Assembly: GCA_035771165.1 (NCBI GenBank)
Contig: JAWNZC010000259.1
Span: 667,501-731,500 of the forward strand
Length of the DNA: 64,000 nucleotides
Direction of reading: 5' to 3'
Source: Paragorgia papillata
Taxonomy: Eukaryota; Cnidaria; Anthozoa; Scleralcyonacea; Coralliidae
Shown here in pieces: positions 10,272-37,700 of the stretch. How positions within the stretch are numbered: the stretch's first letter is position 1; each line of letters starts with the position of its first letter. A program made the position numbers and the translations under genes. The notes below the pieces were generated by a model, which ran no database searches, was not told where the DNA came from, and saw only the letters and a list, made by a program, of their open reading frames with translations.

Positions 10272-10272
10272 G

Positions 10273-12061: not shown

Positions 12062-12073
12062 CCACCAACAATC

Positions 12074-12166
<93 letters not shown>

Positions 12167-13647: not shown

Positions 13648-14571
13648 GGGGCCGTACCCGAGCTAGCCCGCTTTGCCGAGATGATTTTTATTGTGTTTAC
13701 ATGAGAAGGGCTCTAGCTCGCCTAGCCGGGCTGGCTCGCTTGTTGTGCTAATTGCGTAATTTATCAGTTCTGGTAAGACAAGAAGTCTCATTGTTTTAAA
13801 TATGAACTGTACATGAACAAGCAGAACTTGTGAATTGTTAATATGTCAAAAAAAGGTGATAAAAACAAATTTTGTCGCGTGTACGAAGCTTTTAATGCCA
13901 GCCCCGGTAGGCGAGTTAGCCCCCGGTCAATCGTGTTTACATGGGAAAAACCCAGCCCGGGTAACCGAGATCTCGGCTACACGCGTAAAAACGCACAACT
14001 TGTTGACGGTTGTCAACAGGCGTGAACAATGTTGTGCTGCTCGCCGTGAACAATGTTGTGCTGCTCGCCGTGAACAAGTTGTCAACAAGTTGTTCACTTA
14101 TGGTTCGAACAACTTGTTCACGGATAAATCAACAGTCATGAACAAGTTGTTCCAACAGCACATTTTTATAGCCAACAATGTTGTTCACACATGATACAAC
14201 ATGTTGTAACAGCATGACGAAATAACAACGATGAACAACAATGTTACAACAATGGTGAACATGGTTGATGTATCAACACGTTCTTCGGTTGTTACAACAT
14301 GCGTGAACAACGGTTGTTGTTTCATCAAGCTGTAGCAACTTGTTGAAACAATGATGAACAATGTTGTTCATTTATCAATGTTGTTCACATATGTCAACAA
14401 GTTGTTACAGCATTGTTCAGGCAACACAATGCTGTAACAACTTGCGAGATTTTTACGCGTGTAGGCGGGCTGGCTCGGCTCTCATATAAATACAAGATGA
14501 AAATTAACAAGAAATAATAGCATAAACGAGATCTCGGCAAAGCGGGCTAGCCCGGGTACATAAACACCCCC
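13648..14571. mobile_element. Harbinger-type MITE, TSD TAA, carrying a nested element
   Basis: The left terminus GGGGCCGTACCCGAGCTAGC and the reversed right terminus (GGGGGTGTTTATGTACCCGG, then GCTAGCCCGCTTTGCCGAGA) are related, and both continue with CTAGCCCGCTTTGCCGAGAT. TAA flanks at 13645-13647 and 14572-14574. About half of the length is a second TIR element (13977-14464). The right part (from 14465) is duplicated at 25319. Confidence 0.75.
13977..14464. mobile_element. Nested TIR element filled with AACAATGTTG-type palindromes
   Basis: The left end CTACACGCGTAAAAACGCAC and the reversed right end CTACACGCGTAAAAATCTCG are inverted repeats. The interior consists largely of short self-complementary words such as AACAATGTTG, AACAACTTGTTG and CAACATGTTG. 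No coding frame has recognisable content. Confidence 0.7.
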
Positions 14572-15413
14572 TAAAATTATGGTTAATTTTACTGCACTTA
14601 AATAAGATAAATATGCACAAAATGTGATTGCAATAGTTTAAATAAAATTGGAAAACCGAAATCAACAAACTTTAGCTGGGGCAGGAATAAGGCGTGGAAT
14701 GGACTGAGGCATGAATTTTTATAACATCGGTTCCAATTGGTCAAACGATTGGTCAAACAAATGTCTAACGCAAAATTCTATTGAATCGTTGAACCGAAAT
14801 CTTTACGTGTAACAATATCGTATTTTTTCATGTGTTTGAATCACTGACCTCTATACTAACTGGCTGGGCAGTCTAGAACAAATCGCCTTGCGAGGTTTGA
14901 CCCCACCGGCAGCCATGTTGGTACACCCAAAAGATCCTCTCAACCAATCAAAATGCAGTAATTTTGTCATGCACATTATAAATATAATTATTGTCTTAAT
15001 ACAAGAAGGACGCCATGGTCAGGAGTTGGGGGAGTGAAAGGCCGAAATCTCGAATTCAGCCAGGATTTTAAGCACCAGAAATTGCATAATCATTGCAAAA
15101 CCAACTTTGAACCTCGAGCTAGCTATCTGGACCAACCTGGTGGAATATTGCAGTCTTCAATCCAAGCAAATTAATTTTATTTAGTTCATGTTGTTTTCGT
15201 TCTTTTGGGTGAACCAACATGGCCGCCGGTGGGGTCGACCGGTAGATCGTTTCCGCATATTCCAGTTAGTATAGAGATCAGTGGTTTGAATACGAGTTTT
15301 CTTAGTGGCCAAAAACTCTACATCACACTAGAGTTTATGAAATAAAAATATTTAGTTGCATTTAATTAAAAATAAAAAACATGATCGATGTTGCTTTTTT
15401 CTCATTACATAAG

Positions 15414-15685
15414 GGAGCTAAAAGCCTTTATTTGGGATTCTCCTACCTTATATCACATAACGTCGACCGACTGTTCTCTTACGACGGCTGGGGAGCTGTT
15501 TGGTCGTTCCGGCTACGGCATTGGTCTACCCAAAGGCTCACCTTGGACCAATGAAATCTCTTTGGCCATCTTAAACTTTCACGAGAGTGGAAAAATGGAA
15601 GGATTGGAAACGTCTTTTATTGATATTGGCAACTGCCCTGAAAGTAGTAATGCACCAGCCACTCTTGGACTGAGTCATATGCTTG
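15414..15685 (+). CDS. NMDA-type ionotropic glutamate receptor, penultimate exon (copy 1)
   Basis: The translation [14 protein letters not shown], then [40 protein letters not shown] and [19 protein letters not shown] matches the end of the S2 ligand-binding lobe of GluN1-type receptors. The Asp of FIWDS is the residue that binds the amino group of glycine in GluN1. Cys in TDCSL and in GNCPE match the disulphide pair of the NMDA-receptor S2 lobe. An acceptor (TTTTTTCTCATTACATAAG, ending at 15413) and a donor (G|GTGAGT at 15686) bound the exon. It joins in frame to 19595-19881 across a 3.9-kb intron. Upstream exons (amino-terminal domain, S1, pore) were not found in the window. The receptor would sit in the plasma membrane as a ligand-gated cation channel subunit. 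Confidence 0.85.
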
Positions 15686-15979
15686 GTGAGTTTGCTCTCG
15701 ATATGATTACCTATATTTCCCCGAATAACCACGCACGTCGCTCTAATAACTATCTATTACTTCTATTCATTATATGGCACAACTTACTTCCGTTGAATAA
15801 GTGTGTTCTCATTGGCTGAGACGCGTCACGTGCCGGTGGATTATTTTCCGCGACCGCGGTCGGCCATTTTGTTTACAAAAGCTACAATGAATGAAAACCG
15901 CAAAAATTTTACTAATTCAAAAACCTAAGGTCTAAATCATGTATGAATCGGACGACGAGCAATCTGGAAGTGAATTTTA

Positions 15980-16290
15980 GGATTCCGAAAGCGATAACAA
16001 CAAGAGCAACAACATTGAAAACGATGAGTCTATGTCACACGCTCGCGGTCACGCTATAAGTAGGTAATGTATTATGTAAGGTAATGTGAGGTGTACCTCC
16101 AGTACGGACCGAGCTCGTAGAGCGACGTTCGCACATAAAAGACCGAGGTCTGATATTTTCCGTAATGACCAAGCAGTCGAGGTTAATAAGAAGTTTATTA
16201 TATGGCTTTTTGAAACAACATACCTCACATAATACGTACTTATTGCGTGACCTCGAGCGTGTGACATAGACTCACCATTTTCATTGTTGT
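15980..16290. repeat. Inverted-repeat element with GAGTCTATGTCACACGCTCG arms
   Basis: Both ends carry GAGTCTATGTCACACGCTCG (right end reversed), continuing into GGTCACGC. In copy 2 (26834-27170) the outer arms extend further, with AGCGATAACAACAAGAGCAA facing its near-complement. In copy 1, 23 bp of the right arm are deleted, so copy 2 has the less damaged form. Confidence 0.75.
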
Positions 16291-16345
16291 TGACCTTGCA
16301 TGGTCTGATATTTCTCCGTAATAACCACACTGTCGATTAATATAA

Positions 16346-16737
16346 GGGGCTGTTTATATGGAGGCGAGTTACTCGGTCAGCCGAGTTACCGGTTTGCCGG
16401 GATAAACTTTACGTTCTGTTTATATGAAAGCGAGTTACCTGGCAGGTTGTAATATTTGAGATGATTCTCATCAACGAAAGTGACATGAAGTAACGAATAT
16501 AGAAAATTCATTCCGCTATGCCGCGTTACCCGGGGAAAAGTGTTTATATGGGGAAATGTTTATCCCGCTTTGCCGGGATCCCGGCTGCCAGTGCCGAGTT
16601 TTCGCCAAGGCGAGTTACACGTCTGTCTCATATAAACACTGCGGTGGGAAAAACAGTGTTTGTTCTACCGGCCGGGAACTCGTCATGTGCCGAGGAACTC
16701 GGCTGGCCAGGTAACTCGCCTCCATATAAACAGGCCC
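16346..16737. mobile_element. Harbinger-type MITE, 392 bp, TSD TAA (copy 1)
   Basis: The left terminus GGGGCTGTTTATATGGAGGC and the reversed right terminus GGGCCTGTTTATATGGAGGC continue into GAGTTAC on both sides. TAA is duplicated at 16343-16345 and 16738-16740. The interior is rich in CCGGGATCCCGG-like palindromes. It lies within the receptor intron. Confidence 0.85.
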
Positions 16738-17338
16738 TAAGAAGCTATTAAACTGGTACTTATCTCGCACCGTATACTGCGGTTCAGAATTCAGGGCCGT
16801 AGCCACCGGTACGGTTGGTACGGTTTCAACCGGACCACTTTCCGGAGCACTAAAAAATTGTATTCGAGGCTGTGCGTGATTAATATAGCTATAGCTATAG
16901 AGTTAGTTTAGAGGATAGTATTATTATTAGGGTAGTGGGTTAGTTTCTTAGGGTTAGTATAAGAGTAATATTACGGTTTTATTATATGGAGAAGAGTATT
17001 TTACTAGCAACTAAAACACTTGTAGAATCCATATTTCACTACATCCGGGAACCGAGTGGCGTATTTCTCGAATGCTCGCGAGTGACATATCGACAAGTCA
17101 AAATTTTCGCCTTTTGCCGTAAGTTTTCAATCAAGTAAATTTGAGCCAGTAACTTCTCTTAATTCAGTTTTTCACGTAAAATGAAGTATTCAAATAAGCT
17201 GTTGTATTTTTCATTTGTATTTTAGAAAGTTTTAGGTCAAGCGGTTGTAGTTTTTGCATTAAACCCAGTTTATCAACATCACTTCCACGCATAATTTCAT
17301 TGTCCATATAATAAATAGAACATTACACGGTTGCTCAA

Positions 17339-17412
17339 AGATATGGATTTTATGTTCTCGTGGCAAGAGCAATATATATTGTCCTTGCCACTCGAACATA
17401 AAATCCATATCT
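17339..17412. repeat. Hairpin in receptor intron
   Basis: AGATATGGATTTTATGTTC and CTCGTGGCAAG pair with CTTGCCACTCG and GAACATAAAATCCATATCT across a short AT-rich loop. The copy-2 counterpart is at about 28216-28289. Confidence 0.8.
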
Positions 17413-17775
17413 TCTCGCCACCGTGTAATATCCCCCTTATCTTGCACTGCATATCATCAGTTTCACTTAATATTGGTATATGATATACAGGAAATAGCGT
17501 TTCGCATCCACCACGCCCAACCGGACCACTTCATACTTTGTGGCTATGGCACTGCAATTTATGCAATGTTGGGTGAAATCTTCATTCGATGACCAGAAAA
17601 TATTCAAACTTTGGGGTTGAAAACCGCGACAAAGAAATGCAGAAGATAAGATGAAAAATACGATTCAGAAGAGTATTCATTGCTTGTGCTAGTCAAAACA
17701 GATTGATAAGAGTACGAAGGTCGTTCATGTACACTCATATTTTGACAAATTCCAGGGCAAGGTTACTGCATATTT

Positions 17776-18221
17776 AGACTACGTTTACACTAGAGCAAAA
17801 GTTTCCAGATTCGTAAATGTTTCCGGATTCACTTCGTACCGAGTATTCGGATTCGTTAGGCGTTTACACTACAACAGTATTCGCAGATTCGGCCCTTTAA
17901 ACTAAACTCGGAATTCCTTTAATTCAGTTAATATGTTGACCATGTTGGTTCCACCGCAACCTCACATGACTACGAGCGGAAGAGCATCCGAATTCATCCG
18001 AATTACCGTTCACACTACGTATTGTCTCGGATTCAAAAGTATTCGGATACGAAGTTTCTACATTTTTTTCCGGATTCGAAATCTCCGGGTACGTGATCAA
18101 ACCGGAAAGTTTTTATTCCGGATTCATTCTTTTGTGTGTAAACGGCAAAACGAATCCGGTACTAAAACGTTCCGGATTCGTCACGAATCCGAAAACTTTT
18201 GCTCTGGTGTAAACGGGGTCT
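17776..18221. mobile_element. TIR element with CGTTTACAC-type ends (copy 1)
   Basis: The left end AGACTACGTTTACACTAGAG and the reversed right end AGACCCCGTTTACACCAGAG continue into CAAAAGTTT on both sides. The interior repeats TCCGGATTCG-like words. No clear target duplication. The ends resemble those of the 9365-9772 element (AGACCCCGTTTACAC), so they may be distant relatives. Confidence 0.7.
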
Positions 18222-18539
18222 TATTAGACTCCGCCGTATTAACCTTTGTTGGACTTTAGGTCGAAATTTTATATAAATTACCGCAATAATTTCTATATGA
18301 GATATTGTTTAAGATATTTCAATGTTAAGTGTGTTGCACAACCTGAATCAGATTGATACGATTAGGTTACTTCGAAATTGAAAGTGATTTGAACTTGACG
18401 ATTTCTTTATATTACCGATGTAAGCCTTATGAATCTCACGGACTAAATCTGGTTAAAATTCGGTACGCGCAAACGTGTCCATTATTTCTTGCAATGTTTT
18501 GTTTTCCGCTTATATTTGCATTCAAAGAAGGTCCACAAT

Positions 18540-18800
18540 AGGTTTATCGGGACGTGGGATAACGATTGTTTTGATAACAAGAAACGGGATACAAGAGAAA
18601 ATTAGCCCGGGATTCGGGATTTCAAAAAAAGACGGGAAACGAGATTTGGAAATATTAGCTGTCGTGATTCGGGAAATAAGGAGAATTGAACAACGGGATT
18701 CGGAATTTTTAAATAACGAAGACGAAAAGACGAAATCAGCTAACCAAACTTGTTGGGATACGGGAAGGGTAGCAAATAATCGAGCGGGACTCGGGATTTA
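18540..18800 (+). repeat. Degenerate short tandem repeat of CGGGATTCGGGA type
   Basis: Words such as GGGACGTGGGATAACG, AACGGGATACAAG, CGGGATTCGGGATTTC and CGGGACTCGGGATTTAAG recur at irregular spacing. No gene. It contains the block 18724-18740, which differs between the two duplication copies. Confidence 0.5.
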
Positions 18801-19024
18801 AGAAGCCTATTGTGGACCCTCTTCAAACACATAACAAAATTATTTTCACAATCTAGGAATTTCATTGTTATAACTCTTTCCAGGCTATATGGATGTTCCC
18901 TGTGACGAGTAAAATTATATTGCGTTAGCTCGAGTAAAATATTAAACACTTGAGACTCCTAAAGAAAGTACTTTAATTTGCCTTTCTTATGGATTTTCTC
19001 TGATAACACTGTCTTTCTTTGGAC

Positions 19025-19325
19025 GGCATCAGTGGCAGAAGCCGTTAGCGCGCTGCCTCTCACCACTGAAGTTAAGCCCCGTCGAATAGGGTTAGTGTAA
19101 GAATGGATGACTTTATGTGAGTCGAGTTGTTGATTCTCTCTTGTGGCTCGAAGGGTTTTTCACCGGGTTATCCAGTTTCCCTTTCTTTGCAAAATCAGCA
19201 CCGTGCATCAGAGTTTGGAGTGGCACCCATTACTGCCTTAGGGTAGTAGTAATCGAAAGAGGAGTCTTCTGTCTGCCTCCGCCTGCGGTCGACCAACTCA
19301 CTCATTACTAATTTTGATCACCTAT
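19025..19325 (+). mobile_element. 5S-rRNA-derived SINE (SINE3-like), copy 1
   Basis: The stretch 19063-19112 resembles the internal promoter of 5S rRNA: GAAGTTAAGCCCCGTC (box A), GGGTTAGTG (intermediate element) and AATGGATGACT (box C). It is followed by a body with CTCTTGTGGCTCGAAGGGTT and TCACCGGGTTATCCAG. The SINE is followed directly by a long (ATACA)n array, consistent with a microsatellite-type 3' tail. It is too altered in the stem regions to be a functional 5S gene. Confidence 0.6.
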
Positions 19326-19331
19326 GTACTA

Positions 19332-19497
19332 CAATACAATACAATACAATACAATACAATACAATACAATACAATACAATACAATACAATACAATACAAT
19401 ACAATACAATACGCAATACAATACAATACAATACAATACAATACAATACAATACAATACAATACAATACAATACAATACAATACAATACAATAGATA
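19332..19497 (+). repeat. (ATACA)n pentanucleotide array (copy 1)
   Basis: About 33 near-perfect ATACA units with one GC interruption at about 19412. Frames through it are artefacts. The copy-2 array (30213-30378) has the interruption at a different place (about 30288). Confidence 0.95.
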
Positions 19498-19594
19498 CAA
19501 TATACTATTACTAACTATACTAATGTTACAAGGTGCATTTTCAAAACAGTTCTTGCCAAGGCAAGTTGACCTTATATTTTGTTCTGTATTTCAG

Positions 19595-19881
19595 GTGTGT
19601 TTATTATGGTTCTTGCTGGAATTGGGGCCGGGATCATTATCATTATACTGGAAATTGTGTACCACAAACATCGTGGCTGGCGCGCAGACCAGAGGGACCT
19701 AGCGAAGAAGACGACTGAGGTATGGAAAAATAATGTGATGATGACGAGGAATGGTCGAGAACATCGCGGAGATGGTGGACGCACCAACCAGCAACAGAAT
19801 GAAAATCGCGTCACACAAGAAAGTCGGATCAACCCAATTTTTATTACCGATGCTCAGTGTCATGGAAAACAGCTCCCGTAA
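19595..19881 (+). CDS. NMDA-type ionotropic glutamate receptor, last exon (copy 1)
   Basis: After the TTTCAG acceptor, the frame continues the previous exon (split Gly codon, G|GT) as VFIMVLAGIGAGIIIIILEI and VYHKHRGW. This matches the final transmembrane helix (M4) and the following basic turn of GluN1-type subunits (GVF...GI.AGI..I..EI.YK.H). The remaining ~70 residues are a short hydrophilic cytoplasmic tail: AKKTTEVWKNNVMM, an Arg/Gly/Asn/Gln-rich part, then RINPIFITDAQCHGKQLP and TAA. The exon codes for 94 residues. The tail has no C-terminal PDZ-ligand consensus that I can recognise. An identical exon sits at 30476-30762. Confidence 0.85.
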
Positions 19882-20021
19882 CATTTGCACACTTCTTTTT
19901 TTAGCTGACTAGTTGTCAAACTATCGAAAAATTTAAGGGGTTCAAATTTTCGATTTCTCGATTTCTGACAGCCTTTTCCAACACGCTTCTAGCCACAAGT
20001 TTTGGTGGTGGAAGGTGGCAA

Positions 20022-20290
<269 letters not shown>

Positions 20291-22495
20291 CCTTTATTTA
20301 AGAGGGTAAACACTAAATAGTGTAAAACACCAATAAACTTGTGGCCCTCAATCAAGAATATTTACAGTGTTCAAACAGTAAAACTACATACAATTAATTA
20401 AATATTAAGACTACTATCAAAGCTAAAAATGCAAAAACAAACTAAATCAATTTATGGCTTAAAATAGTTTCTGGTTTTCCAAAGACTGGTTTCTAAGAAC
20501 GTTCCTAAATGTTTTGACGGTCGGCAGTTTTCTCATGTTGATACACCAAAAGTTTTCCCACCTTCTGTCTTACGTTTAACAACAGAACGTAGTAAATTGA
20601 GATCGCAATAACGTGTCGTCCTATAATATATTATAATGTAATTTACTATTCATACTCCATAAATTAGAGCATCGCATGTACAAACCATGAATAAATTGTC
20701 AGTGTGTTCAAGTACAACGGTCTAGGCTACATAGTGTGTGACGCAACCCGATAGTGACGCCTGATTTATCGTGAAAATGACTTCGTTACACTTGTTTTGG
20801 TTTGGGTTTTTTGTTTTTGTTTTGTTGGGTTGTTTTGTTTTTACCCACCGCTGCAGCTCTGTCGCATTGCGAATTTTCTCCCCATACCTTAATAGCGATG
20901 CGATATTGCTGCAGTGTGAAATAGAATACAATGGCATATCTGTAAAAATTAACAAAGAAAATGGTTGCTTTTCATTAGGCCGTGTTGTATATGTTATGTA
21001 TAAATATATAAAAATCTCTAAAAGGTTAAAATATTACAAATTATTTACAAAATATATAAAAACATTAAAATATAAAAACATATATAATGTAAATAAATCA
21101 AATCACTTTGGGATATTTGCTCTGACTTAAGGCGGATTTCCAGTCCTCGCACGAAGCAACTCGTAGCTCGCTATGAGCACTCGCAAGCTCGCTGCTGTTG
21201 GAAATATTGAACCATATTTTACTCGCGGCGAGTACTCGCGGTAAATAAACCAATCAAAACAAATTATGTCAACATTTCAAACTCGTTTGTAGTTCATGAG
21301 GAAACAGTGAAAACTGCACAGAGGAAATCATTACCGTGTCGATGGTTAATTTGCATGGATACTGAAGGAGAAATTACATAAACTAATCGACCTTTCAGCT
21401 CGATTTCCCTTAAAATACCAAAAATACCGATTTGTTTGAGATGCTATATCAAACACTCAGAAGAGTGCTTCATCAGGATATCCAAACACCTCGGAGTTTG
21501 TTAAAAAAACTCGGCTATCGCTTCATCAGCCGCTAGTTATCACAACGAGCTGCGTTTTGTGGAAATGACGTGGAGATCGTGCGAGTACCCTACTAATTTT
21601 TGTATTTCGGTTTTTGTTTACATGAAGTCTGCCTTGAAGTAATTAACCTTGGTAATCAAATATGACCGCGGTTACCTCGAGTAAAGAAGATTATCATTAT
21701 TTCATGCATCATTCCATCTATAATTTCGATTTTCAGCCGTACCCAGTACTTAGCAGGGCTAGAACCACGGTGAAAGTCGAGCTAGCTTGGGTAAAGCAGC
21801 AACTTGTTCATGCAGAGTCGCTGCTTCCTGCAACGTACACAGTCACAAACGCACCTTCATTTTACTCGTATTCAGTTTCGATCATATAGTGTTGTGATCA
21901 CAAATTGACAATTTTTTCCATCACCTATATAAAATCTTCATGAATGTGTGTAATTTGATCTGTCTGCGTTGAATTCGTTCTCTCGCAAACGTGTGACGGT
22001 AATGAGTTGCATCGCACCATGGTAACCATTGACCAATCAGAATTACGTCTGATGAGCACGCGTCAGCTGCCCAGTGACGTAATGCCAATTTAATCTCGGA
22101 GGCTAACGGATAAAGAAGCTCTGAGTTCGTGAAAATCGTCGAAATTTTGCAGTTTGGTTTGCAAATTTCAAGCTCGAATCCGATTTCTGGATGTCACGGT
22201 TACTTATCTTTGTGAATGTGGTGATTTTGGTCGAGATTAAAGGATTTATTCGTTTCTTATCGCCCATCGAGTGTTGGCGTTTGGAATCTGAGTCGCCTGC
22301 CTTCCTATTTTACTCTGCAAGGGTGAGCAAGCATACCGCAAAGCGAGCAATACTGCTCGATATAAGACTGAAATACAAAAGGGAACAACACAACACCAGG
22401 TATTTTATATTTAAATGCATTTTTAATAGTGCTTGTGATGACATATTTAATACATTTTAATAATAATATAATATCAGTCAGACAAGTCGCTTGTG
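20291..22495. other. Noncoding interval downstream of the receptor gene, copy 1
   Basis: No recognised gene; the frames at 20771, 21662 and 22191 show no familiar motifs. The stretch 20655-20735 is an inverted copy of 6650-6720. The stretch 21140-21250 has CTCGC/GCGAG-rich words that could be half of a TIR element, and 21440-21540 is a loose fold-back. Present again at 31176-33380. Confidence 0.4.
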
Positions 22496-22497
22496 GT

Positions 22498-22905
22498 TCC
22501 CAGAGCCTTCTCACGTGGGCCGCGCAAGCGAAGGCTCTGGGATAATCCATCGCCAGAAACCGAAAAACAGGTTGCCGATTGAAAAGAGAAGAGCGTGCGC
22601 CGCCAGATATCGAAATCTTCGCAAGTGGAAGGAAGTTCGAGGGGTTTTAAATTTTATCTAACGGATAAACTTGTCAAGAACTAAACAGCATTTTAAACAG
22701 CAAGTGACGGCTTTTGAATGCTTCCAATAGAGAAAGCGGCGAGTAGCAAACTTGTCGTAGCCGAAGTGGCACGGCGGCAATACGGCATATCATTTGCACG
22801 GGGCACTTGTCAGTTGTGAAACAAAATGACTAGTAATTTCAGAACTACGCATCGTTGAAATATATTGTGTACGTATGCTGTCAGATGTTGAATGAGCTTC
22901 TGCTA
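22498..22905 (+). repeat. Left arm of a long inverted-repeat element (copy 1, right arm absent)
   Basis: It begins CCCAGAGCCTTCTCACGTGG, itself a short palindrome, and continues through GAGGGGTTTTAAATTTTATC, AACTTGTCAAGAACTAAACA and TTTCAGAACTACGCATCGTT. In copy 2 the same left arm faces a right arm at 38765-40437. In copy 1 the duplication junction cut off everything beyond the LINE. Confidence 0.7.
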
Positions 22906-22929
22906 AAGCCAACCGTTTGCTTGGCTTTC

Positions 22930-23640
22930 TTCGCAGGAATTGTACTCAAATGACTGACACTCGCTGCCGTCGGCTACTCTATCTCGCACTCGTCCGATCT
23001 CACCTGTCGTACGCCAGTGAGATCTGGGCACCTCAAGGTTCGTCACGTGATCTTGCGATCCTGGATACTTCAAGACTACGAATTGTCTTATTCTGAGCGT
23101 CTCAAGAAACTCAATTTACTACCGATATCGTACTGGCTTGAAATAAAAGATCTTATCTTTTTTTTCAAATGCAAACAAGGCCTCTACGATCTAGAAATCT
23201 CCTCTTTTGTCTCTTTTTCTTCTCATCGCTCGTCTCGCACCCGTTCAAGCAAGGACAATTTGCTTCAAGCCAATCCTTGCAGGACTTCTCTTTTTAGGAA
23301 CTCTTTTTTTAACCGAATTGTCTTTCTCTGGAACAATCTCTCTCCGATCATCCGTAATAGTACGTCTGTTTCCTCTTTTAAGCACCAACTTTATATTTAC
23401 TACTCTTCTCAATTAGATTCCACTTTTGAAGTAAATAGAATGCGCACTTGGAAAACCTACTGCTCTAAGTGTCGTTCTTACAACTTAAGCTGTTGTTCTT
23501 AATCTGTCCTATCGTATGTAAATAGTGTATTAGTCTATGTCTTTAATTTATGTCCACTCCGTATTTTTTGTCAGGTTGGTCTTCACATGGGACTCATGTC
23601 CTGTTGACCATACCTTCAACCATGATCAAGTCTTGCATCG
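22930..23640 (+). pseudogene. LINE reverse transcriptase C-terminal fragment, plus strand (copy 1)
   Basis: It reads RRLLYLALVRSHLSYASEIW from about 22962, then, after a frame break near 23080, DYELSYSERLKKLNLLPISY, DLIFFFKCKQGLYDLE and FFNRIVFLWNNLSP. This is the region after the RT domain in non-LTR retrotransposons. It is 5'-truncated and frameshifted. Its 3' end meets the A-rich 3' tail of a second LINE on the opposite strand at about 23640. Confidence 0.8.
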
Positions 23641-23644
23641 TTTT

Positions 23645-25314
23645 TATTTATTTTTTTTATTTTTTTTATTTAAACAATATTTTGAACAACAATAACCCCA
23701 AGAGCTAAAAGCTCATCATGGGGGCTCATGTTAATTTACATTACATACATAATTATGAGGACCACGAACAAGAAAGGACAAGCATACAGTACCAAAAAAA
23801 TAAAAAAATAAATAAAATAAATAAATAAATAAATGACAGTAATTGACTAGAGCAGTTGATACTTCTATTAACAGAAATCAAATTAACTTATGAGAAACGT
23901 TTAGTATGGCTTATAAAAGATCTTACTTTTGAGAAAATAACAGCATTAGAATAAAAGTCCAGGTCAGTTGAACCGTATAATAATATATCTACTTGTTCTG
24001 ATGTATTCAAATTGGACCACCTATTACCGGCAAGATGCATGACAGAGGCAAGCATTGAAGCGCGTAGAGCAGCAAATCGAGGACAAAACATTAAATAATG
24101 GGTTACATCCTCTTTAGGTGCACCACAGGTGCAAGACGGAGATAGTATGCAATTCATTAAACAAGATAGTAATTTAAACCACAATTTTTTAATCTTAATC
24201 TCGTATGTAAAACAGAAAGATATCGGTCCCCAAGGTAAACTAGTTTATTAACAGGAGGTATATAAAACATGCCACGCAACAAGTCATTTTTGAAGGAAGC
24301 AATTGATACTGATTCGCGTGACGATTCAGAGAGGCTATTCCACAAACTAGTAGTTGAATACAGAAAAGACCTCTTTGATTTTTCAGTACGAATGAAAGGT
24401 AGACACAAGTCGTTACTCGTTCGAAGACTATAGGGAGCTCGCTGGCTAACATAAATAGGACAGAGAGCCGAAAGATATGTTGGCGCTAAACCCTTAACCA
24501 TTTTATACATTAATAGTAATTTATGGATTTTTCTTCGGTTAGATAGCTTCTGCAAGCTACAATCAAGCAATAAACTTTCTCTGTGTGTACCTTTCATAGC
24601 ACCAGAAATGAATTTTGCGGCATCATACTGGACACTTTCCAATAGGTCAGATTCACCCATGGTAGCTACACCAGTCCCAGACAACATCAGCATATTCCAT
24701 ATTAGAACGAACAAGAGATTTATACAAAATCTCTAAAGTTGATCTTGACAGCTTAAATTTAAAACCCTTTAATAAATTTAATTTTTTTGAAGCCTTTTCA
24801 TATAACTTAACAATATGGGCTTTCCAAGACATATTACTGGAGAATAAAACACCTAAATGCTCGTACGTACTTACTTCATCAATGGCATTGTCACTTAGTT
24901 TCAAAACAGGATGATCAGGTTTGATTCTTTTTCGAGAAAATATAATGCTTTTTGTCTTTGATGCATTCATTGTCACTAAACATTTATCTGACCACAAAGA
25001 AATAGCATTTAAGTCATTGTTCAAAGTTTGAGCAGCTGTTTCAGGCGTGGAGACTTCCTCGAGTAGCAGAGTATCATCAGCGAAAAGAAAACAGTTACTA
25101 TTTATATCAGACTGAATATCGTTAATATAGATCAGAAATAAAAGTGGTCCAAGGACGGATCCTTGAGGTACACCCGCTTTAACTTCTTTCCAAGATGAAT
25201 TTTGACCCTCAATAACTACTCGCTGAAATCGGTCACTCAGGTAACTTTCAAACCATTTAAACAAAGTACCCTCAATCCCCAAATTCTTCAATTTAACTAA
25301 TAGTCCGGCATGCC
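23645..25314 (-). pseudogene. CR1/L2-like LINE, 3' half of ORF2 (copy 1, cut by the duplication junction)
   Basis: The minus strand encodes HAGLLVKLKNLGIEGTLFKW, GVPQGSVLGPLLFLIYIND and CFLFADDTLLLEE (RT active site FADD), then the C-terminal region with the Cys/His motif CTCGAPKEDVTHYLMFC. There are two frame breaks, near 24655 and near 24170. The first 12 or so codons of the open frame (from 25339) come from unrelated sequence, because the element is interrupted at 25314 where copy 2 of the duplication starts. The same two frame breaks are in the copy-2 element, so it was already dead before the duplication. Confidence 0.9.
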
Positions 25315-26267: not shown

Positions 26268-26539
26268 GGAGCTAAAAGCCTTTATTTGGGATTCTCCTAC
26301 CTTATATCACATAACGTCGACCGACTGTTCTCTTACGACGGCTGGGGAGCTGTTTGGTCGTTCCGGCTACGGCATTGGTCTACCCAAAGGCTCACCTTGG
26401 ACCAATGAAATCTCTTTGGCCATCTTAAACTTTCACGAGAGTGGAAAAATGGAAGGATTGGAAACGTCTTTTATTGATATTGGCAACTGCCCTGAAAGTA
26501 GTAATGCACCAGCCACTCTTGGACTGAGTCATATGCTTG
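26268..26539 (+). CDS. NMDA-type ionotropic glutamate receptor, penultimate exon (copy 2)
   Basis: It has the same predicted protein sequence as 15414-15685, with the same acceptor and the same GTGAGT donor at 26540. The FIWDS aspartate, both S2 cysteines and the [14 protein letters not shown] block are present. Because upstream exons are not inside the duplicated unit, this copy is either an orphan gene end or an alternative 3' end for a gene that starts upstream. The reading frame and splice signals are intact, which suggests a recent duplication, selection, or an assembly duplicate. Confidence 0.8.
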
Positions 26540-27222
26540 GTGAGTTTGCTCTCGATATGATTACCTATATTTCCCCGAATAACCACGCACGTCGCTCTAA
26601 TAACTATCTATTACTTCTATTCATTATATGGCACAACTTACTTCCGTTGAATAAGTGTGTTCTCATTGGCTGAGACGCGTCACGTGCCGGTGGATTATTT
26701 TCCGCGACCGCGGTCGGCCATTTTGTTTACAAAAGCTACAATGAATGAAAACCGCAAAAATTTTACTAATTCAAAAACCTAAGGTCTAAATCATGTAAGA
26801 ATCGGACGACGAGCAATCTGGAAGTGAATTTTAGGATTCCGAAAGCGATAACAACAAGAGCAACAACATTGAAAACGATGAGTCTATGTCACACGCTCGC
26901 GGTCACGCTATAAGTAGGTAATGTATTATGTAAGGTAATGTGAGGTGTACCTCCAGTACGGACCGAGCTCGTAGAGCGACGTTCGCACATAAAAGACCGA
27001 GGTCTGATATTTTCCGTAATGACCAAGCAGTCGAGGTTAATAAGAAGTTTATTATATGGCTTTTTGAAACAACATACCTCACATAATACGTACTTATTGC
27101 GTGACCTCGAGCGTGTGATATAGACTCACCGTTTTCATTGTTGTTGCTCTTGCTATTATCGCTCTCAAGACCTTGCATGGTCTGATATTTCTCCGTAATA
27201 ACCACACTGTCGATTAATATAA

Positions 27223-27614
27223 GGGGCTGTTTATATGGAGGCGAGTTACTCGGTCAGCCGAGTTACCGGTTTGCCGGGATAAACTTTACGTTCTGTTTAT
27301 ATGAAAGCGAGTTACCTGGCAGGTTGTAATATTTGAGATGATTCTCATCAACGAAAGTGACATGAAGTAACGAATATAGAAAATTCATTCCGCTATGCCG
27401 CGTTACCCGGGGAAAAGTGTTTATATGGGGAAATGTTTATCCCGCTTTGCCGGGATCCCGGCTGCCAGTGCCGAGTTTTCGCCAAGGCGAGTTACACGTC
27501 TGTCTCATATAAACACTGCGGTGGGAAAAACAGTGTTTGTTCTACCGGCCGGGAACTCGTCATGTGCCGAGGAACTCGGCTGGCCAGGTAACTCGCCTCC
27601 ATATAAACAGGCCC
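27223..27614. mobile_element. Harbinger-type MITE, TSD TAA (copy 2)
   Basis: Counterpart of 16346-16737 with the same termini and TAA flanks. It came with the duplication, not by a separate insertion. Confidence 0.85.
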
Positions 27615-28652
27615 TAAGAAGCTATTAAACTGGTACTTATCTCGCACCGTATACTGCGGTTCAGAATTCAGGGCCGTAGCCACCGGTACGGTTGGTACGG
27701 TTTCAACCGGACCACTTTCCGGAGCACTAAAAAATTGTATTCGAGGCTGTGCGTGATTAATATAGCTATAGCTATAGAGTTAGTTTAGAGGATAGTATTA
27801 TTATTAGGGTAGTGGGTTAGTTTCTTAGGGTTAGTATAAGAGTAATATTACGGTTTTATTATATGGAGAAGAGTATTTTACTAGCAACTAAAACACTTGT
27901 AGAATCCATATTTCACTACATCCGGGAACCGAGTGGCGTATTTCTCGAATGCTCGCGAGTGACATATCGACAAGTCAAAATTTTCGCCTTTTGCCGTAAG
28001 TTTTCAATCAAGTAAATTTGAGCCAGTAACTTCTCTTAATTCAGTTTTTCACGTAAAATGAAGTATTCAAATAAGCTGTTGTATTTTTCATTTGTATTTT
28101 AGAAAGTTTTAGGTCAAGCGGTTGTAGTTTTTGCATTAAACCCAGTTTATCAACATCACTTCCACGCATAATTTCATTGTCCATATAATAAATAGAACAT
28201 TACACGGTTGCTCAAAGATATGGATTTTATGTTCTCGTGGCAAGAGCAATATATATTGTCCTTGCCACTCGAACATAAAATCCATATCTTCTCGCCACCG
28301 TGTAATATCCCCCTTATCTTGCACTGCATATCATCAGTTTCACTTAATATTGGTATATGATATACAGGAAATAGCGTTTCGCATCCACCACGCCCAACCG
28401 GACCACTTCATACTTTGTGGCTATGGCACTGCAATTTATGCAATGTTGGGTGAAATCTTCATTCGATGACCAGAAAATATTCAAACTTTGGGGTTGAAAA
28501 CCGCGACAAAGAAATGCAGAAGATAAGATGAAAAATACGATTCAGAAGAGTATTCATTGCTTGTGCTAGTCAAAACAGATTGATAAGAGTACGAAGGTCG
28601 TTCATGTACACTCATATTTTGACAAATTCCAGGGCAAGGTTACTGCATATTT

Positions 28653-29098
28653 AGACTACGTTTACACTAGAGCAAAAGTTTCCAGATTCGTAAATGTTTC
28701 CGGATTCACTTCGTACCGAGTATTCGGATTCGTTAGGCGTTTACACTACAACAGTATTCGCAGATTCGGCCCTTTAAACTAAACTCGGAATTCCTTTAAT
28801 TCAGTTAATATGTTGACCATGTTGGTTCCACCGCAACCTCACATGACTACGAGCGGAAGAGCATCCGAATTCATCCGAATTACCGTTCACACTACGTATT
28901 GTCTCGGATTCAAAAGTATTCGGATACGAAGTTTCTACATTTTTTTCCGGATTCGAAATCTCCGGGTACGTGATCAAACCGGAAAGTTTTTATTCCGGAT
29001 TCATTCTTTTGTGTGTAAACGGCAAAACGAATCCGGTACTAAAACGTTCCGGATTCGTCACGAATCCGAAAACTTTTGCTCTGGTGTAAACGGGGTCT
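28653..29098. mobile_element. TIR element with CGTTTACAC-type ends (copy 2)
   Basis: Counterpart of 17776-18221, with the same ends. Confidence 0.7.
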
Positions 29099-29905
29099 TA
29101 TTAGACTCCGCCGTATTAACCTTTGTTGGACTTTAGGTCGAAATTTTATATAAATTACCGCAATAATTTCTATATGAGATATTGTTTAAGATATTTCAAT
29201 GTTAAGTGTGTTGCACAACCTGAATCAGATTGATACGATTAGGTTACTTCGAAATTGAAAGTGATTTGAACTTGACGATTTCTTTATATTACCGATGTAA
29301 GCCTTATGAATCTCACGGACTAAATCTGGTTAAAATTCGGTACGCGCAAACGTGTCCATTATTTCTTGCAATGTTTTGTTTTCCGCTTATATTTGCATTC
29401 AAAGAAGGTCCACAATAGGTTTATCGGGACGTGGGATAACGATTGTTTTGATAACAAGAAACGGGATACAAGAGAAAATTAGCCCGGGATTCGGGATTTC
29501 AAAAAAAGACGGGAAACGAGATTTGGAAATATTAGCTGTCGTGATTCGGGAAATAAGGAGAATTGAACAACGGGATTCGGAATTTTTAAATAACGAAGAC
29601 GTTGGTCGAGATTGGATCAGCTAACCAAACTTGTTGGGATACGGGAAGGGTAGCAAATAATCGAGCGGGACTCGGGATTTAAGAAGCCTATTGTGGACCC
29701 TCTTCAAACACATAACAAAATTATTTTCACAATCTAGGAATTTCATTGTTATAACTCTTTCCAGGCTATATGGATGTTCCCTGTGACGAGTAAAATTATA
29801 TTGCGTTAGCTCGAGTAAAATATTAAACACTTGAGACTCCTAAAGAAAGTACTTTAATTTGCCTTTCTTATGGATTTTCTCTGATAACACTGTCTTTCTT
29901 TGGAC

Positions 29906-30206
29906 GGCATCAGTGGCAGAAGCCGTTAGCGCGCTGCCTCTCACCACTGAAGTTAAGCCCCGTCGAATAGGGTTAGTGTAAGAATGGATGACTTTATGTG
30001 AGTCGAGTTGTTGATTCTCTCTTGTGGCTCGAAGGGTTTTTCACCGGGTTATCCAGTTTCCCTTTCTTTGCAAAATCAGCACCGTGCATCAGAGTTTGGA
30101 GTGGCACCCATTACTGCCTTAGGGTAGTAGTAATCGAAAGAGGAGTCTTCTGTCTGCCTCCGCCTGCGGTCGACCAACTCACTCATTACTAATTTTGATC
30201 ACCTAT
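29906..30206 (+). mobile_element. 5S-rRNA-derived SINE (copy 2)
   Basis: Counterpart of 19025-19325, with the same box A, intermediate and box C-like words, followed by the (ATACA)n array 30213-30378. Confidence 0.6.
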
Positions 30207-30212
30207 GTACTA

Positions 30213-30378
30213 CAATACAATACAATACAATACAATACAATACAATACAATACAATACAATACAATACAATACAATACAATACAATACGCAATACAATAC
30301 AATACAATACAATACAATACAATACAATACAATACAATACAATACAATACAATACAATACAATACAATACAATAGATA
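30213..30378 (+). repeat. (ATACA)n array (copy 2)
   Basis: The same length class as 19332-19497, but the single GC interruption has moved (about 30288), which separates the two copies. Confidence 0.95.
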
Positions 30379-30475
30379 CAATATACTATTACTAACTATA
30401 CTAATGTTACAAGGTGCATTTTCAAAACAGTTCTTGCCAAGGCAAGTTGACCTTATATTTTGTTCTGTATTTCAG

Positions 30476-30762
30476 GTGTGTTTATTATGGTTCTTGCTGG
30501 AATTGGGGCCGGGATCATTATCATTATACTGGAAATTGTGTACCACAAACATCGTGGCTGGCGCGCAGACCAGAGGGACCTAGCGAAGAAGACGACTGAG
30601 GTATGGAAAAATAATGTGATGATGACGAGGAATGGTCGAGAACATCGCGGAGATGGTGGACGCACCAACCAGCAACAGAATGAAAATCGCGTCACACAAG
30701 AAAGTCGGATCAACCCAATTTTTATTACCGATGCTCAGTGTCATGGAAAACAGCTCCCGTAA
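30476..30762 (+). CDS. NMDA-type ionotropic glutamate receptor, last exon (copy 2)
   Basis: The predicted protein is identical to that of 19595-19881: M4 helix VFIMVLAGIGAGIIIIILEI, basic turn, and a ~70-residue tail ending KQLP-stop. It is in frame with the 26268-26539 exon across a 3.9-kb intron. The absence of any coding change between copies fits a recent event. Confidence 0.8.
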
Positions 30763-30904
30763 CATTTGCACACTTCTTTTTTTAGCTGACTAGTTGTCAA
30801 ACTATCGAAAAATTTAAGGGGTTCAAATTTTCGATTTCTCGATTTCTGACAGCCTTTTCCAACACGCTTCTAGCCACAAGTTTTGGTGGTGGAAGGTGGC
30901 AAGT

Positions 30905-31175
<271 letters not shown>

Positions 31176-33382
31176 CCTTTATTTAAGAGGGTAAACACTA
31201 AATAGTGTAAAACACCAATAAACTTGTGGCCCTCAATCAAGAATATTTACAGTGTTCAAACAGTAAAACTACATACAATTAATTAAATATTAAGACTACT
31301 ATCAAAGCTAAAAATGCAAAAACAAACTAAATCAATTTATGGCTTAAAATAGTTTCTGGTTTTCCAAAGACTGGTTTCTAAGAACGTTCCTAAATGTTTT
31401 GACGGTCGGCAGTTTTCTCATGTTGATACACCAAAAGTTTTCCCACCTTCTGTCTTACGTTTAACAACAGAACGTAGTAAATTGAGATCGCAATAACGTG
31501 TCGTCCTATAATATATTATAATGTAATTTACTATTCATACTCCATAAATTAGAGCATCGCATGTACAAACCATGAATAAATTGTCAGTGTGTTCAAGTAC
31601 AACGGTCTAGGCTACATAGTGTGTGACGCAACCCGATAGTGACGCCTGATTTATCGTGAAAATGACTTCGTTACACTTGTTTTGGTTTGGGTTTTTTGTT
31701 TTTGTTTTGTTGGGTTGTTTTGTTTTTACCCACCGCTGCAGCTCTGTCGCATTGCGAATTTTCTCCCCATACCTTAATAGCGATGCGATATTGCTGCAGT
31801 GTGAAATAGAATACAATGGCATATCTGTAAAAATTAACAAAGAAAATGGTTGCTTTTCATTAGGCCGTGTTGTATATGTTATGTATAAATATATAAAAAT
31901 CTCTAAAAGGTTAAAATATTACAAATTATTTACAAAATATATAAAAACATTAAAATATAAAAACATATATAATGTAAATAAATCAAATCACTTTGGGATA
32001 TTTGCTCTGACTTAAGGCGGATTTCCAGTCCTCGCACGAAGCAACTCGTAGCTCGCTATGAGCACTCGCAAGCTCGCTGCTGTTGGAAATATTGAACCAT
32101 ATTTTACTCGCGGCGAGTACTCGCGGTAAATAAACCAATCAAAACAAATTATGTCAACATTTCAAACTCGTTTGTAGTTCATGAGGAAACAGTGAAAACT
32201 GCACAGAGGAAATCATTACCGTGTCGATGGTTAATTTGCATGGATACTGAAGGAGAAATTACATAAACTAATCGACCTTTCAGCTCGATTTCCCTTAAAA
32301 TACCAAAAATACCGATTTGTTTGAGATGCTATATCAAACACTCAGAAGAGTGCTTCATCAGGATATCCAAACACCTCGGAGTTTGTTAAAAAAACTCGGC
32401 TATCGCTTCATCAGCCGCTAGTTATCACAACGAGCTGCGTTTTGTGGAAATGACGTGGAGATCGTGCGAGTACCCTACTAATTTTTGTATTTCGGTTTTT
32501 GTTTACATGAAGTCTGCCTTGAAGTAATTAACCTTGGTAATCAAATATGACCGCGGTTACCTCGAGTAAAGAAGATTATCATTATTTCATGCATCATTCC
32601 ATCTATAATTTCGATTTTCAGCCGTACCCAGTACTTAGCAGGGCTAGAACCACGGTGAAAGTCGAGCTAGCTTGGGTAAAGCAGCAACTTGTTCATGCAG
32701 AGTCGCTGCTTCCTGCAACGTACACAGTCACAAACGCACCTTCATTTTACTCGTATTCAGTTTCGATCATATAGTGTTGTGATCACAAATTGACAATTTT
32801 TTCCATCACCTATATAAAATCTTCATGAATGTGTGTAATTTGATCTGTCTGCGTTGAATTCGTTCTCTCGCAAACGTGTGACGGTAATGAGTTGCATCGC
32901 ACCATGGTAACCATTGACCAATCAGAATTACGTCTGATGAGCACGCGTCAGCTGCCCAGTGACGTAATGCCAATTTAATCTCGGAGGCTAACGGATAAAG
33001 AAGCTCTGAGTTCGTGAAAATCGTCGAAATTTTGCAGTTTGGTTTGCAAATTTCAAGCTCGAATCCGATTTCTGGATGTCACGGTTACTTATCTTTGTGA
33101 ATGTGGTGATTTTGGTCGAGATTAAAGGATTTATTCGTTTCTTATCGCCCATCGAGTGTTGGCGTTTGGAATCTGAGTCGCCTGCCTTCCTATTTTACTC
33201 TGCAAGGGTGAGCAAGCATACCGCAAAGCGAGCAATACTGCTCGATATAAGACTGAAATACAAAAGGGAACAACACAACACCAGGTATTTTATATTTAAA
33301 TGCATTTTTAATAGTGCTTGTGATGACATATTTAATACATTTTAATAATAATATAATATCAGTCAGACAAGTCGCTTGTGGT
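31176..33382. other. Noncoding interval, copy 2 of 20291-22495
   Basis: The same sequence as copy 1 with no recognised gene. It includes the inverted copy of the 6650-6720 repeat at about 31540-31620. Confidence 0.4.
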
Positions 33383-33790
33383 TCCCAGAGCCTTCTCACG
33401 TGGGCCGCGCAAGCGAAGGCTCTGGGATAATCCATCGCCAGAAACCGAAAAACAGGTTGCCGATTGAAAAGAGAAGAGCATGCGCCGCCAGATATCGAAA
33501 TCTTCGCAAGTGGAAGGAAGTTCGAGGGGTTTTAAATTTTATCTAACGGATAAACTTGTCAAGAACTAAACAGCATTTTAAACAGCAAGTGACGGCTTTT
33601 GAATGCTTCCAATAGAGAAAGCGGCGAGTAGCAAACTTGTCGTAGCCGAAGTGGCACGGCGGCAATACGGCATATCATTTGCACGGGGCACTTGTCAGTT
33701 GTGAAACAAAATGACTAGTAATTTCAGAACTACGCATCGTTGAAATATATTGTGTACGTATGCTGTCAGATGTTGAATGAGCTTCTGCTA
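33383..33790 (+). repeat. Left arm of the long inverted-repeat element (copy 2)
   Basis: It begins CCCAGAGCCTTCTCACGTGG and pairs, with mismatches, with the right arm 38765-40437 read backwards: CCCAGAGCC...AAGGCTCTGG, GAGGGGTTTTAAATTTTATC, CTTGTCAAGAAC, AGAAAGCGG, CTTGTCAGTTGTG and CTAGTAATTTCAGAACTAC occur in the same order in both arms. The arm stops at GTTGAATGAGCTT, where LINE sequence begins. Confidence 0.75.
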
Positions 33791-33814
33791 AAGCCAACCG
33801 TTTGCTTGGCTTTC

Positions 33815-34525
33815 TTCGCAGGAATTGTACTCAAATGACTGACACTCGCTGCCGTCGGCTACTCTATCTCGCACTCGTCCGATCTCACCTGTCGTACGCC
33901 AGTGAGATCTGGGCACCTCAAGGTTCGTCACGTGATCTTGCGATCCTGGATACTTCAAGACTACGAATTGTCTTATTCTGAGCGTCTCAAGAAACTCAAT
34001 TTACTACCGATATCGTACTGGCTTGAAATAAAAGATCTTATCTTTTTTTTCAAATGCAAACAAGGCCTCTACGATCTAGAAATCTCCTCTTTTGTCTCTT
34101 TTTCTTCTCATCGCTCGTCTCGCACCCGTTCAAGCAAGGACAATTTGCTTCAAGCCAATCCTTGCAGGACTTCTCTTTTTAGGAACTCTTTTTTTAACCG
34201 AATTGTCTTTCTCTGGAACAATCTCTCTCCGATCATCCGTAATAGTACGTCTGTTTCCTCTTTTAAGCACCAACTTTATATTTACTACTCTTCTCAATTA
34301 GATTCCACTTTTGAAGTAAATAGAATGCGCACTTGGAAAACCTACTGCTCTAAGTGTCGTTCTTACAACTTAAGCTGTTGTTCTTAATCTGTCCTATCGT
34401 ATGTAAATAGTGTATTAGTCTATGTCTTTAATTTATGTCCACTCCGTATTTTTTGTCAGGTTGGTCTTCACATGGGACTCATGTCCTGTTGACCATACCT
34501 TCAACCATGATCAAGTCTTGCATCG
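33815..34525 (+). pseudogene. LINE reverse transcriptase C-terminal fragment, plus strand (copy 2)
   Basis: Counterpart of 22930-23640 with the same frame break and motifs (LALVRSHLSYASEIW, SYSERLKKLNLLPISYWLEI). Its 3' end abuts the 3' end of the minus-strand LINE. Confidence 0.8.
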
Positions 34526-34772
34526 TTTTTATTTATTTTTTTTATTTTTTTTATTTAAACAATATTTTGAACAACAATAACCCCAAGAGCTAAAAGCTCA
34601 TCATGGGGGCTCATGTTAATTTACATTACATACATAATTATGAGGACCACGAACAAGAAAGGACAAGCATACAGTACCAAAAAAATAAAAAAATAAATAA
34701 AATAAATAAATAAATAAATGACAGTAATTGACTAGAGCAGTTGATACTTCTATTAACAGAAATCAAATTAAC

Positions 34773-37700
34773 TTATGAGAAACGTTTAGTATGGCTTATA
34801 AAAGATCTTACTTTTGAGAAAATAACAGCATTAGAATAAAAGTCCAGGTCAGTTGAACCGTATAATAATATATCTACTTGTTCTGATGTATTCAAATTGG
34901 ACCACCTATTACCGGCAAGATGCATGACAGAGGCAAGCATTGAAGCGCGTAGAGCAGCAAATCGAGGACAAAACATTAAATAATGGGTTACATCCTCTTT
35001 AGGTGCACCACAGGTGCAAGACGGAGATAGTATGCAATTCATTAAACAAGATAGTAATTTAAACCACAATTTTTTAATCTTAATCTCGTATGTAAAACAG
35101 AAAGATATCGGTCCCCAAGGTAAACTAGTTTATTAACAGGAGGTATATAAAACATGCCACGCAACAAGTCATTTTTGAAGGAAGCAATTGATACTGATTC
35201 GCGTGACGATTCAGAGAGGCTATTCCACAAACTAGTAGTTGAATACAGAAAAGACCTCTTTGATTTTTCAGTACGAATGAAAGGTAGACACAAGTCGTTA
35301 CTCGTTCGAAGACTATAGGGAGCTCGCTGGCTAACATAAATAGGACAGAGAGCCGAAAGATATGTTGGCGCTAAACCCTTAACCATTTTATACATTAATA
35401 GTAATTTATGGATTTTTCTTCGGTTAGATAGCTTCTGCAAGCTACAATCAAGCAATAAACTTTCTCTGTGTGTACCTTTCATAGCACCAGAAATGAATTT
35501 TGCGGCATCATACTGGACACTTTCCAATAGGTCAGATTCACCCATGGTAGCTACACCAGTCCCAGACAACATCAGCATATTCCATATTAGAACGAACAAG
35601 AGATTTATACAAAATCTCTAAAGTTGATCTTGACAGCTTAAATTTAAAACCCTTTAATAAATTTAATTTTTTTGAAGCCTTTTCATATAACTTAACAATA
35701 TGGGCTTTCCAAGACATATTACTGGAGAATAAAACACCTAAATGCTCGTACGTACTTACTTCATCAATGGCATTGTCACTTAGTTTCAAAACAGGATGAT
35801 CAGGTTTGATTCTTTTTCGAGAAAATATAATGCTTTTTGTCTTTGATGCATTCATTGTCACTAAACATTTATCTGACCACAAAGAAATAGCATTTAAGTC
35901 ATTGTTCAAAGTTTGAGCAGCTGTTTCAGGCGTGGAGACTTCCTCGAGTAGCAGAGTATCATCAGCGAAAAGAAAACAGTTACTATTTATATCAGACTGA
36001 ATATCGTTAATATAGATCAGAAATAAAAGTGGTCCAAGGACGGATCCTTGAGGTACACCCGCTTTAACTTCTTTCCAAGATGAATTTTGACCCTCAATAA
36101 CTACTCGCTGAAATCGGTCACTCAGGTAACTTTCAAACCATTTAAACAAAGTACCCTCAATCCCCAAATTCTTCAATTTAACTAATAGTCCGGCATGCCA
36201 AACCTTATCAAATGCTTTTGATATATCTAAAAAGACTGCTCTTACTTCATTACCTCTATCTAAACACTCTTGAATTTTGTGAACTATATATACTAATTGC
36301 ATTACTGTGGAATCGCCTGGTCGAAAACCGGATTGAAAACGGTAAAAGAAATTATTGATTTCAAGAAAGGAATACAATTTCGTAAAAACAACCTTCTCGC
36401 AAATTTTACTTAAGCAAGAAAGAAGTGAGACTGGACGATAATTAGATTTAACTTGTTTATTATCTTTCTTAAACAAAGGTAAGACATTGGCCAATTTCCA
36501 AAGATGTGGAAATTGTCCAAAAGAAAGAGATGTATTTATAAGGCGTGTGAGAGGCTTATAAATCCCATGACTACAAAGCTTAATCATTTTATTACTAATA
36601 CCATCCATCCCACAAGCCTTCCCTATATCCACCCGAGTAATTAAGTTTAAAACCTCCTCTTCAGAAACAACAATTCTTGATAAAGAAATTTGGGAAGCAG
36701 AAGGATTAGGTAATACCGCACCTTCTGTGGGCAGGTAGGTTTGACTGACAAAAAAGTCATTAAACAATTCTGCTTTGTCCTTTGAATCAAAAATATAATT
36801 ATTATTTTCATGCAAGGGTGGTATAACAGTACTAGCTTTAAAGCCGTAGAACGATTTAACAATGTTCCACCACTTTTTAGCCGACGTAATTGGGTTGGAC
36901 AACTGCTCATTAATTTTGTGGTTATAATCTAATTTTGCTTTACGAATTAAATGAACGACTAAATTTCTTTGAACCCGATAATTTTCCCATTTAGAAGGGC
37001 ATTTATACCGAGAATAAACCTTTAAAAGTCTATCACGTTTACGTATTGCTCGACGAATATCCCCATTCATCCAAGTTTTGTCATTAGGACGAATCATCAC
37101 AATTTTGCTTGGAATAAAACGATCAATAATTGAAAAAAACCCCAAAGCAATCCACTTTTCATAAATAACATCTATGTTAGACATTGTTTCCTGATAAAAA
37201 ACATCGTCCCACCTAGCATTTAAGAAAGCATTGTTTAACTGATCCACGTCAATATCGTTAAAATTCCACACTTTTCTCTTAAAACATTTAGGTTTATACG
37301 TAGGAACAGATAATTTACCAAATATGACGTTATGGTCGCAATTAGAAGGTGGACTTAAAGTACCTGTTGTGTCAAACAAGCCTGGAGAATCGGAAATAAT
37401 TAGATCCAAAATTGACTCGCCAGACTGAGTTATTCTAGTCGGTTCATTCACAAGCTGAACAAGATTGTTGCATTCCAAAAAATTAAAAAGTTTAACACCA
37501 ACGTCGGTGTCCAACATTGATGTATCAACAAAATTATAATGAGCGTTGAAATCACCCAAAAGAATAATAGACGTGTAATTTTTAGGCCTAATAGTGTCTA
37601 GACAATCTTGAAGAGATTGAAAGAAAACATCAATTTGAGAAACACTGGAAGAAGGAGGTCGATAGCAAACACCACATAATATTTTGAACTTGTTTAAAGA

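Follow-up and report, generated by a model that had tools for sequence, protein, structure and literature searches.

A 64,000-base window of the Paragorgia papillata genome (contig JAWNZC010000259.1, assembly GCA_035771165.1, positions 667,501 to 731,500), composed entirely of A, C, G and T with an N count of 0, harbors two adjacent copies of a 10.9-kb unit in the same orientation, i.e. a direct tandem duplication. Its breakpoints share no homology, three filler bases separate the copies, and nearly all substitutions between them lie at one edge of the unit. The account towards which we lean is a real, recent tandem duplication that arose by end joining or template switching and may later have undergone allelic exchange at its outer-left 1.8 kb. 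Comparison of the window with itself by BLAST aligned 14465-25315 to 25319-36200 on the same strand at 99.43% identity over 10,886 columns, which is well above chance and the dominant direct repeat of the window. A model reading the sequence alone had already proposed a near-identical direct tandem duplication (hereafter the original prediction), which both this comparison and a pairwise MAFFT alignment bear out. Of the predicted extent, 14465 to 36199, the start stands, whereas the end has to be moved, as copy 2 runs to 36200. The components are as follows.

14465..25315, plus strand: copy 1 of the duplicated unit, 10,851 bp (self-BLAST, MAFFT and BLAST alignments)
25316..25318, strand not applicable: filler TGA at the junction, in register with neither ancestral flank
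25319..36200, plus strand: copy 2 of the duplicated unit, 10,882 bp (self-BLAST, MAFFT and BLAST alignments)

In the MAFFT alignment the join reads ...GGCATGCCA-TGA-GCGGGCTGG..., placing the filler of about three bases, TGA, where it had been predicted (25316-25318). Beyond the outer edges similarity stops abruptly, with identities of 0.275 (right) and 0.27 (left) in the next 200 bp on each side, the level expected by chance. The duplication as such is ordinary, a fresh example of a well-known type of event; the points to keep are the divergence limited to one edge and the position of the left break, which lies 3 bp away from one end of a nested element with terminal inverted repeats (TIRs), both of which go beyond the original prediction.

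Each ancestral breakpoint lies within a transposable element. The right one, 36200/36201, cuts a long open reading frame (ORF) of a long interspersed nuclear element (LINE), and a truncated counterpart of this frame ends copy 1.

35541..38216, minus strand: LINE ORF of 892 codons with endonuclease and reverse transcriptase (Pfam), cut by the right breakpoint at 36200
24656..25357, minus strand: 5'-truncated copy of the LINE reading frame, cut at the junction in copy 1 and reading open through it

Pfam matches to RVT_1 (E 4.3e-34) and Exo_endo_phos_2 (E 8.3e-14) place reverse transcriptase and endonuclease within this single ORF, the combination by which we recognize a LINE. Its relatives comprise 610 proteins at E <=0.001 among 7993 scored candidates, the closest being 61% identical among the matches listed (best 120 of 610). 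Another LINE-like piece, lying in a different frame, is found in both copies (24157-24732 and 35042-35617), assigned to the LINE by position and by eye and having no Pfam match; since both copies share it, its frame change is older than the duplication. Upstream of the LINE ORF, an ORF at 38445-38768 on the minus strand gave a sub-threshold match to Baculo_FP_2nd (E 0.00055, 20 bits versus a cut-off of 24) and is perhaps, as a guess, part of the first ORF of the LINE.

The left ancestral breakpoint, 14464/14465, falls within a Harbinger-like miniature inverted-repeat transposable element (MITE) that is itself interrupted by a smaller element.

13648..14571, strand not applicable: Harbinger-like MITE (TIR alignment), containing the left breakpoint and interrupted by the nested element
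13980..14461, strand not applicable: TA-flanked nested element of 482 bp whose 12-bp TIRs CACGCGTAAAAA match perfectly

Harbinger-type elements generate a 3-bp TWA target duplication, and TAA borders the outer MITE at 13645-13647 and 14572-14574. Its ends, read by eye from the sequence, form a TIR stretch in which 28 of 29 positions match, the outermost bases of both ends matching less well, with an outer 12-bp inverted pair at 13666/14547. Partial relatives occur in the window at 7230-7266 and 7416-7453, and its inner pattern returned 0 matches in viral contigs. TIR alignment and Pfam thus agree with the prediction that the junction joins a LINE reverse transcriptase to a Harbinger-type MITE. 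The nested element combines its TIRs with the TA target duplication typical of Tc1/mariner-type elements, and the duplication starts 3 bp past its right end (TA 14462-14463, G 14464). Twenty first-order Markov sequences of 64 kb yielded only 3 TA-flanked 12-bp inverted pairs in total, so this structure is unlikely to be due to chance. Leaving aside its (TA)n array, the window itself carries 22 such pairs, many of them mutually overlapping, and a break close to one of them is therefore not very surprising. A second copy of the nested element was found neither in the window nor in viral contigs (0 matches).

How these two positions came to be joined is constrained by the breakpoints themselves. 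They share no homology, the best match between their 2-kb surroundings being 26 bp at 85% and located off the breaks. Unequal (non-allelic) homologous recombination between repeats, which relies on extended homology between the ancestral breakpoints, is therefore unlikely and was rejected. Zero homology and a 3-bp filler instead fit an origin by end joining with short filler, or by a template switch without microhomology, the look that the breakpoint had been credited with; non-homologous end joining, theta-mediated joining and template switching are not told apart by these features. Polymerase-theta joining can leave short insertions, according to the part of PMC7407515 drawn on here, and a filler of 3 bp is too short to identify the repair pathway. 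Strings spanning the filler (CCATGA, ATGAGC, TGAGCG, CATGAG and GCCATGAGC), searched on both strands of 14000-15100, 24900-26000 and 35700-36700, were found at the junction alone in four of five cases, while CCATGA also occurs at 36565, a result that is uninformative for 3 bp. In the proposed sequence of events, a break or fork collapse would have occurred just to the right of the nested MITE (ancestral 14464/14465) and another within the LINE (36200/36201); the two ends, on sister or homologous chromatids, would then have been united, with TGA left between them, either through end joining or through a single template switch that needed no microhomology. Adjacent copies, breakpoints without homology and a few filler bases are likewise known from direct tandem segmental duplications attributed to end joining or template switching, whereas the restriction of substitutions to one edge of the unit sets the present case apart.

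Both transposons invite explanations in which they take an active part. As an improbable special case of end joining, a transposase may have cut the TA-flanked, Tc1/mariner-like nested MITE at its right end, with the free end joined to the LINE break. DNA transposon excision produces double-strand breaks, and the start of the duplication 3 bp outside the element's end would suit such a cut, but in transposon-dense DNA breaks that fall only a few bases from an element end are not rare, as the 22 TA-flanked pairs of the window illustrate. Alternative transposition in maize gives rise to segmental duplications that likewise have an edge near a DNA transposon end (part of PMC4270019); unlike the composite insertions described there, however, the junction studied here retains no transposon terminus, and the nested element is non-autonomous. 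No relative of this element was found in the window or the viral contigs, and its activity is putative. If a transposase cut did take place, non-autonomous MITEs would seed tandem duplications in this genome. Far less credible still is an origin of copy 1 by retrotransposition of a LINE transcript that carried 9 kb of 3' transduced sequence and was 5'-truncated at 25315. Copy 1 does hold the 3' part of the LINE, with its 5'-side truncation exactly at the junction, yet the insertion would have had to hit the very edge of its own source, and neither a target-site duplication nor a tail is present at 14465 or at the junction. LINE 3' transduction was rejected on these grounds, and end joining or template switching stays the preferred origin of the junction.

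Differences between the copies were listed from the pairwise MAFFT alignment and cross-checked by aligning these copies with BLAST. The list is the one predicted, namely few substitutions, a 23-bp indel, a replacement longer by 4 bp and altered array lengths. Fourteen single substitutions lie outside the simple-repeat arrays, at copy-1 positions 14476, 14679, 14728, 14778, 14783, 14798, 14870, 14995, 15007, 15065, 15944, 16265, 16277 and 22595. In addition, MAFFT identified the 23-bp indel at 16292 / 27146, a replacement of 10 bp in copy 1 (18724) by 14 unrelated bp in copy 2 (29601), and changes in two arrays.

19330..19502 in copy 1, 30211-30383 in copy 2, plus strand: (TACAA)n array (repeat search)
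20020..20288 in copy 1, 30901-31173 in copy 2, plus strand: (AAGT)n array, differing in length between the copies

The first array has a variant unit shifted between copies (19408 / 30289), and the second differs by one substitution and by two indels, one of 20 bp and one of 16 bp. The BLAST count of substitutions is likewise 14 once the replacement and the arrays are set aside. BLAST renders the 23-bp indel as 11 short gaps, counts one neighboring substitution differently, and adds small gaps and four further mismatches within the (AAGT)n array, so that indel counts at the 23-bp indel and in the arrays vary with the aligner. Apart from the 23-bp indel, the replacement and the two arrays, neither alignment shows any single-base indel standing alone. 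As copy 1 contains 63 homopolymers that are 5 or more bases long (19 of them 6 or more), this absence makes both copies look like accurate sequence. The 10-for-14-bp replacement resembles a break-repair scar; for the 14 bases at 29602 the window offers only inexact matches as a source, the one at 33112 (2 mismatches) not being convincing, and for the 23-bp insertion it holds none within 3 edits other than the insertion itself.

The substitutions divide the unit into two tracts.

14465..16292, strand not applicable: diverged left tract with 13 of the 14 array-external substitutions, ending at the 23-bp indel
16293..25315, strand not applicable: near-identical tract with one substitution (22595), the 10-for-14-bp replacement (18724) and the array changes

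Thirteen of the 14 lie within the first 1,813 bp of the unit and one in the last 9.0 kb. The longest substitution-free gap, 6,318 bp, was matched in only 7 of 100,000 uniform placements, and binomial probabilities are 9e-10 for 13 of 14 in 1,813 bp and 2e-10 for 10 of 14 in 601 bp, both for tracts picked post hoc. In view of these values, an even accumulation of substitutions since the duplication is very unlikely. The predicted recency holds for the right 9.0 kb with its single substitution; it is less easily reconciled with the 13 in the left 1.8 kb. The diverged tract begins at the unit edge, as would be expected if a duplicated chromosome and one with a single copy had exchanged by a single crossover within copy 1. 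Such an exchange would combine the left flank and left 1.8 kb of one haplotype with the remainder of the duplicated chromosome. We propose that a later crossover or conversion with a single-copy chromosome swapped the outer-left 1.8 kb of copy 1 for that of another haplotype, which would explain why substitutions are confined to the left edge, and the edge-limited divergence would then show the duplicated chromosome recombining with the single-copy form. Gene conversion homogenizing the right 9 kb would also produce the clustering. Mutagenic break-induced synthesis was set aside, since 10 changes in 590 bp beside the junction exceed what we would expect of it (our judgement) and the substitution types are mixed.

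The same border between a diverged and an identical tract bears on whether the duplication exists in the animal at all. We consider it probably real rather than an assembly artefact: the junction is base-resolved, includes filler and lies inside an N-free window. Moreover, two alleles of an outbred anthozoan would be expected to differ at more than the one site seen in 9.0 kb, which speaks for a real duplication. Heterozygosity in octocorals is given as 0.71% for Paramuricea clavata (corrected single-nucleotide variant rate) and 0.73% for Heliopora coerulea in the parts of PMC7467007 and PMC10267220 drawn on here; at 0.7%, a rate taken from these other octocorals, and without recombination, the probability of at most one difference in 9.0 kb is ~3%. 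A clearly less probable, though serious, alternative is that two contigs with overlapping 10.9-kb ends, from two haplotypes or from one haplotype represented twice, were set end to end, a gap filler leaving the TGA. Several points weigh against the account that we favor. Contig ends often fall in repeats, and both breaks of the unit do so. The 0.7% heterozygosity is borrowed from Paramuricea and Heliopora and may not be that of the source species, and the binomial clustering figures use a tract selected after inspection of the data. Places where heterozygous sequence meets homozygous sequence are prone to false duplication, as stated in the portion of PMC9516828 used here, which also documents wrong gap filling between false copies; the heterozygous-looking 1.8 kb beside the homozygous-looking 9.0 kb reproduces this setting. 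False heterotype duplications described there likewise consist of adjacent near-identical copies with a diverged/identical border, but the present junction has no gap or N, and almost no differences are seen over 9 kb. The absence of N between the copies argues against an assembly gap, although a gap that had been filled incorrectly would not be noticed in this way. In our judgement, a 3-base filler at a join without overlap is also unusual for contig joining, and an assembler would normally merge 9 kb of near identity; isolated single-base indels are, furthermore, absent outside the variable places. Since a false duplication would look similar, the pattern makes an assembly test case, which matters for gene or repeat counts. 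Overall, the original observation is confirmed in nearly every detail and its interpretation partly supported.

Including the LINE ORF, 37 ORFs of at least 70 codons start in copy 2. Apart from the LINE ORF, no Pfam match was obtained in the 11 ORFs scanned (two via their copy-1 twins) of the 36 others, 2 at E <=0.001, one of which is a LINE 3' piece, and 9 at E <=0.1, a scan that spliced genes with short exons would escape. Searches for tRNAs and Rfam families (gathering threshold) gave no match in the window. We take the unit to be noncoding, transposon-rich DNA with simple repeats and no recognized host gene, and on this basis it is expected to be selectively neutral. Its readable junction illustrates the gain of a tandem copy in a transposon-rich invertebrate genome.

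Outside the unit, the window contains three paralogous, apparently intronless MFS transporter ORFs at 10193-11725, 41391-42230 and 56951-58450, two of them long with Pfam MFS_1 matches and one a 5'-truncated copy without a Pfam match. The first is 45% identical to a Paramuricea clavata 'MFS transporter ceroid lipofuscinosis neuronal', and a Dendronephthya gigantea relative reaches 36% (an organism name accompanied 2 of the 19 matches), which points to an anthozoan as the source. Collinear older repeats surround these ORFs (511-2730, 5225-12300, 41116-44990 and 53837-62920), most matching pieces being 83-97% identical and simple-repeat parts lower. This arrangement suggests that transporter-bearing units form an older tandem array, in which the 10.9-kb duplication would lie between two truncated units. 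Several local direct duplicates of repeat pieces (~0.1-0.5 kb) occur at 46704-49769 and 52393-55308, and these pieces are also related, partly in inverted orientation, to 6721-8504. An ORF at 61036-61452 has a sub-threshold Pfam match to QRICH1 (E 4e-06, 27.3 bits versus a cut-off of 30.8). Two minisatellites were identified, one at 62918-63661 with ~44 copies of the 17-mer TTAGGGGCCTCGCGCAT (94% matching) and one at 45200-45945 with ~39 copies of the 19-mer GTGGGCAAACTTGGGTGGA, the latter open in several frames.

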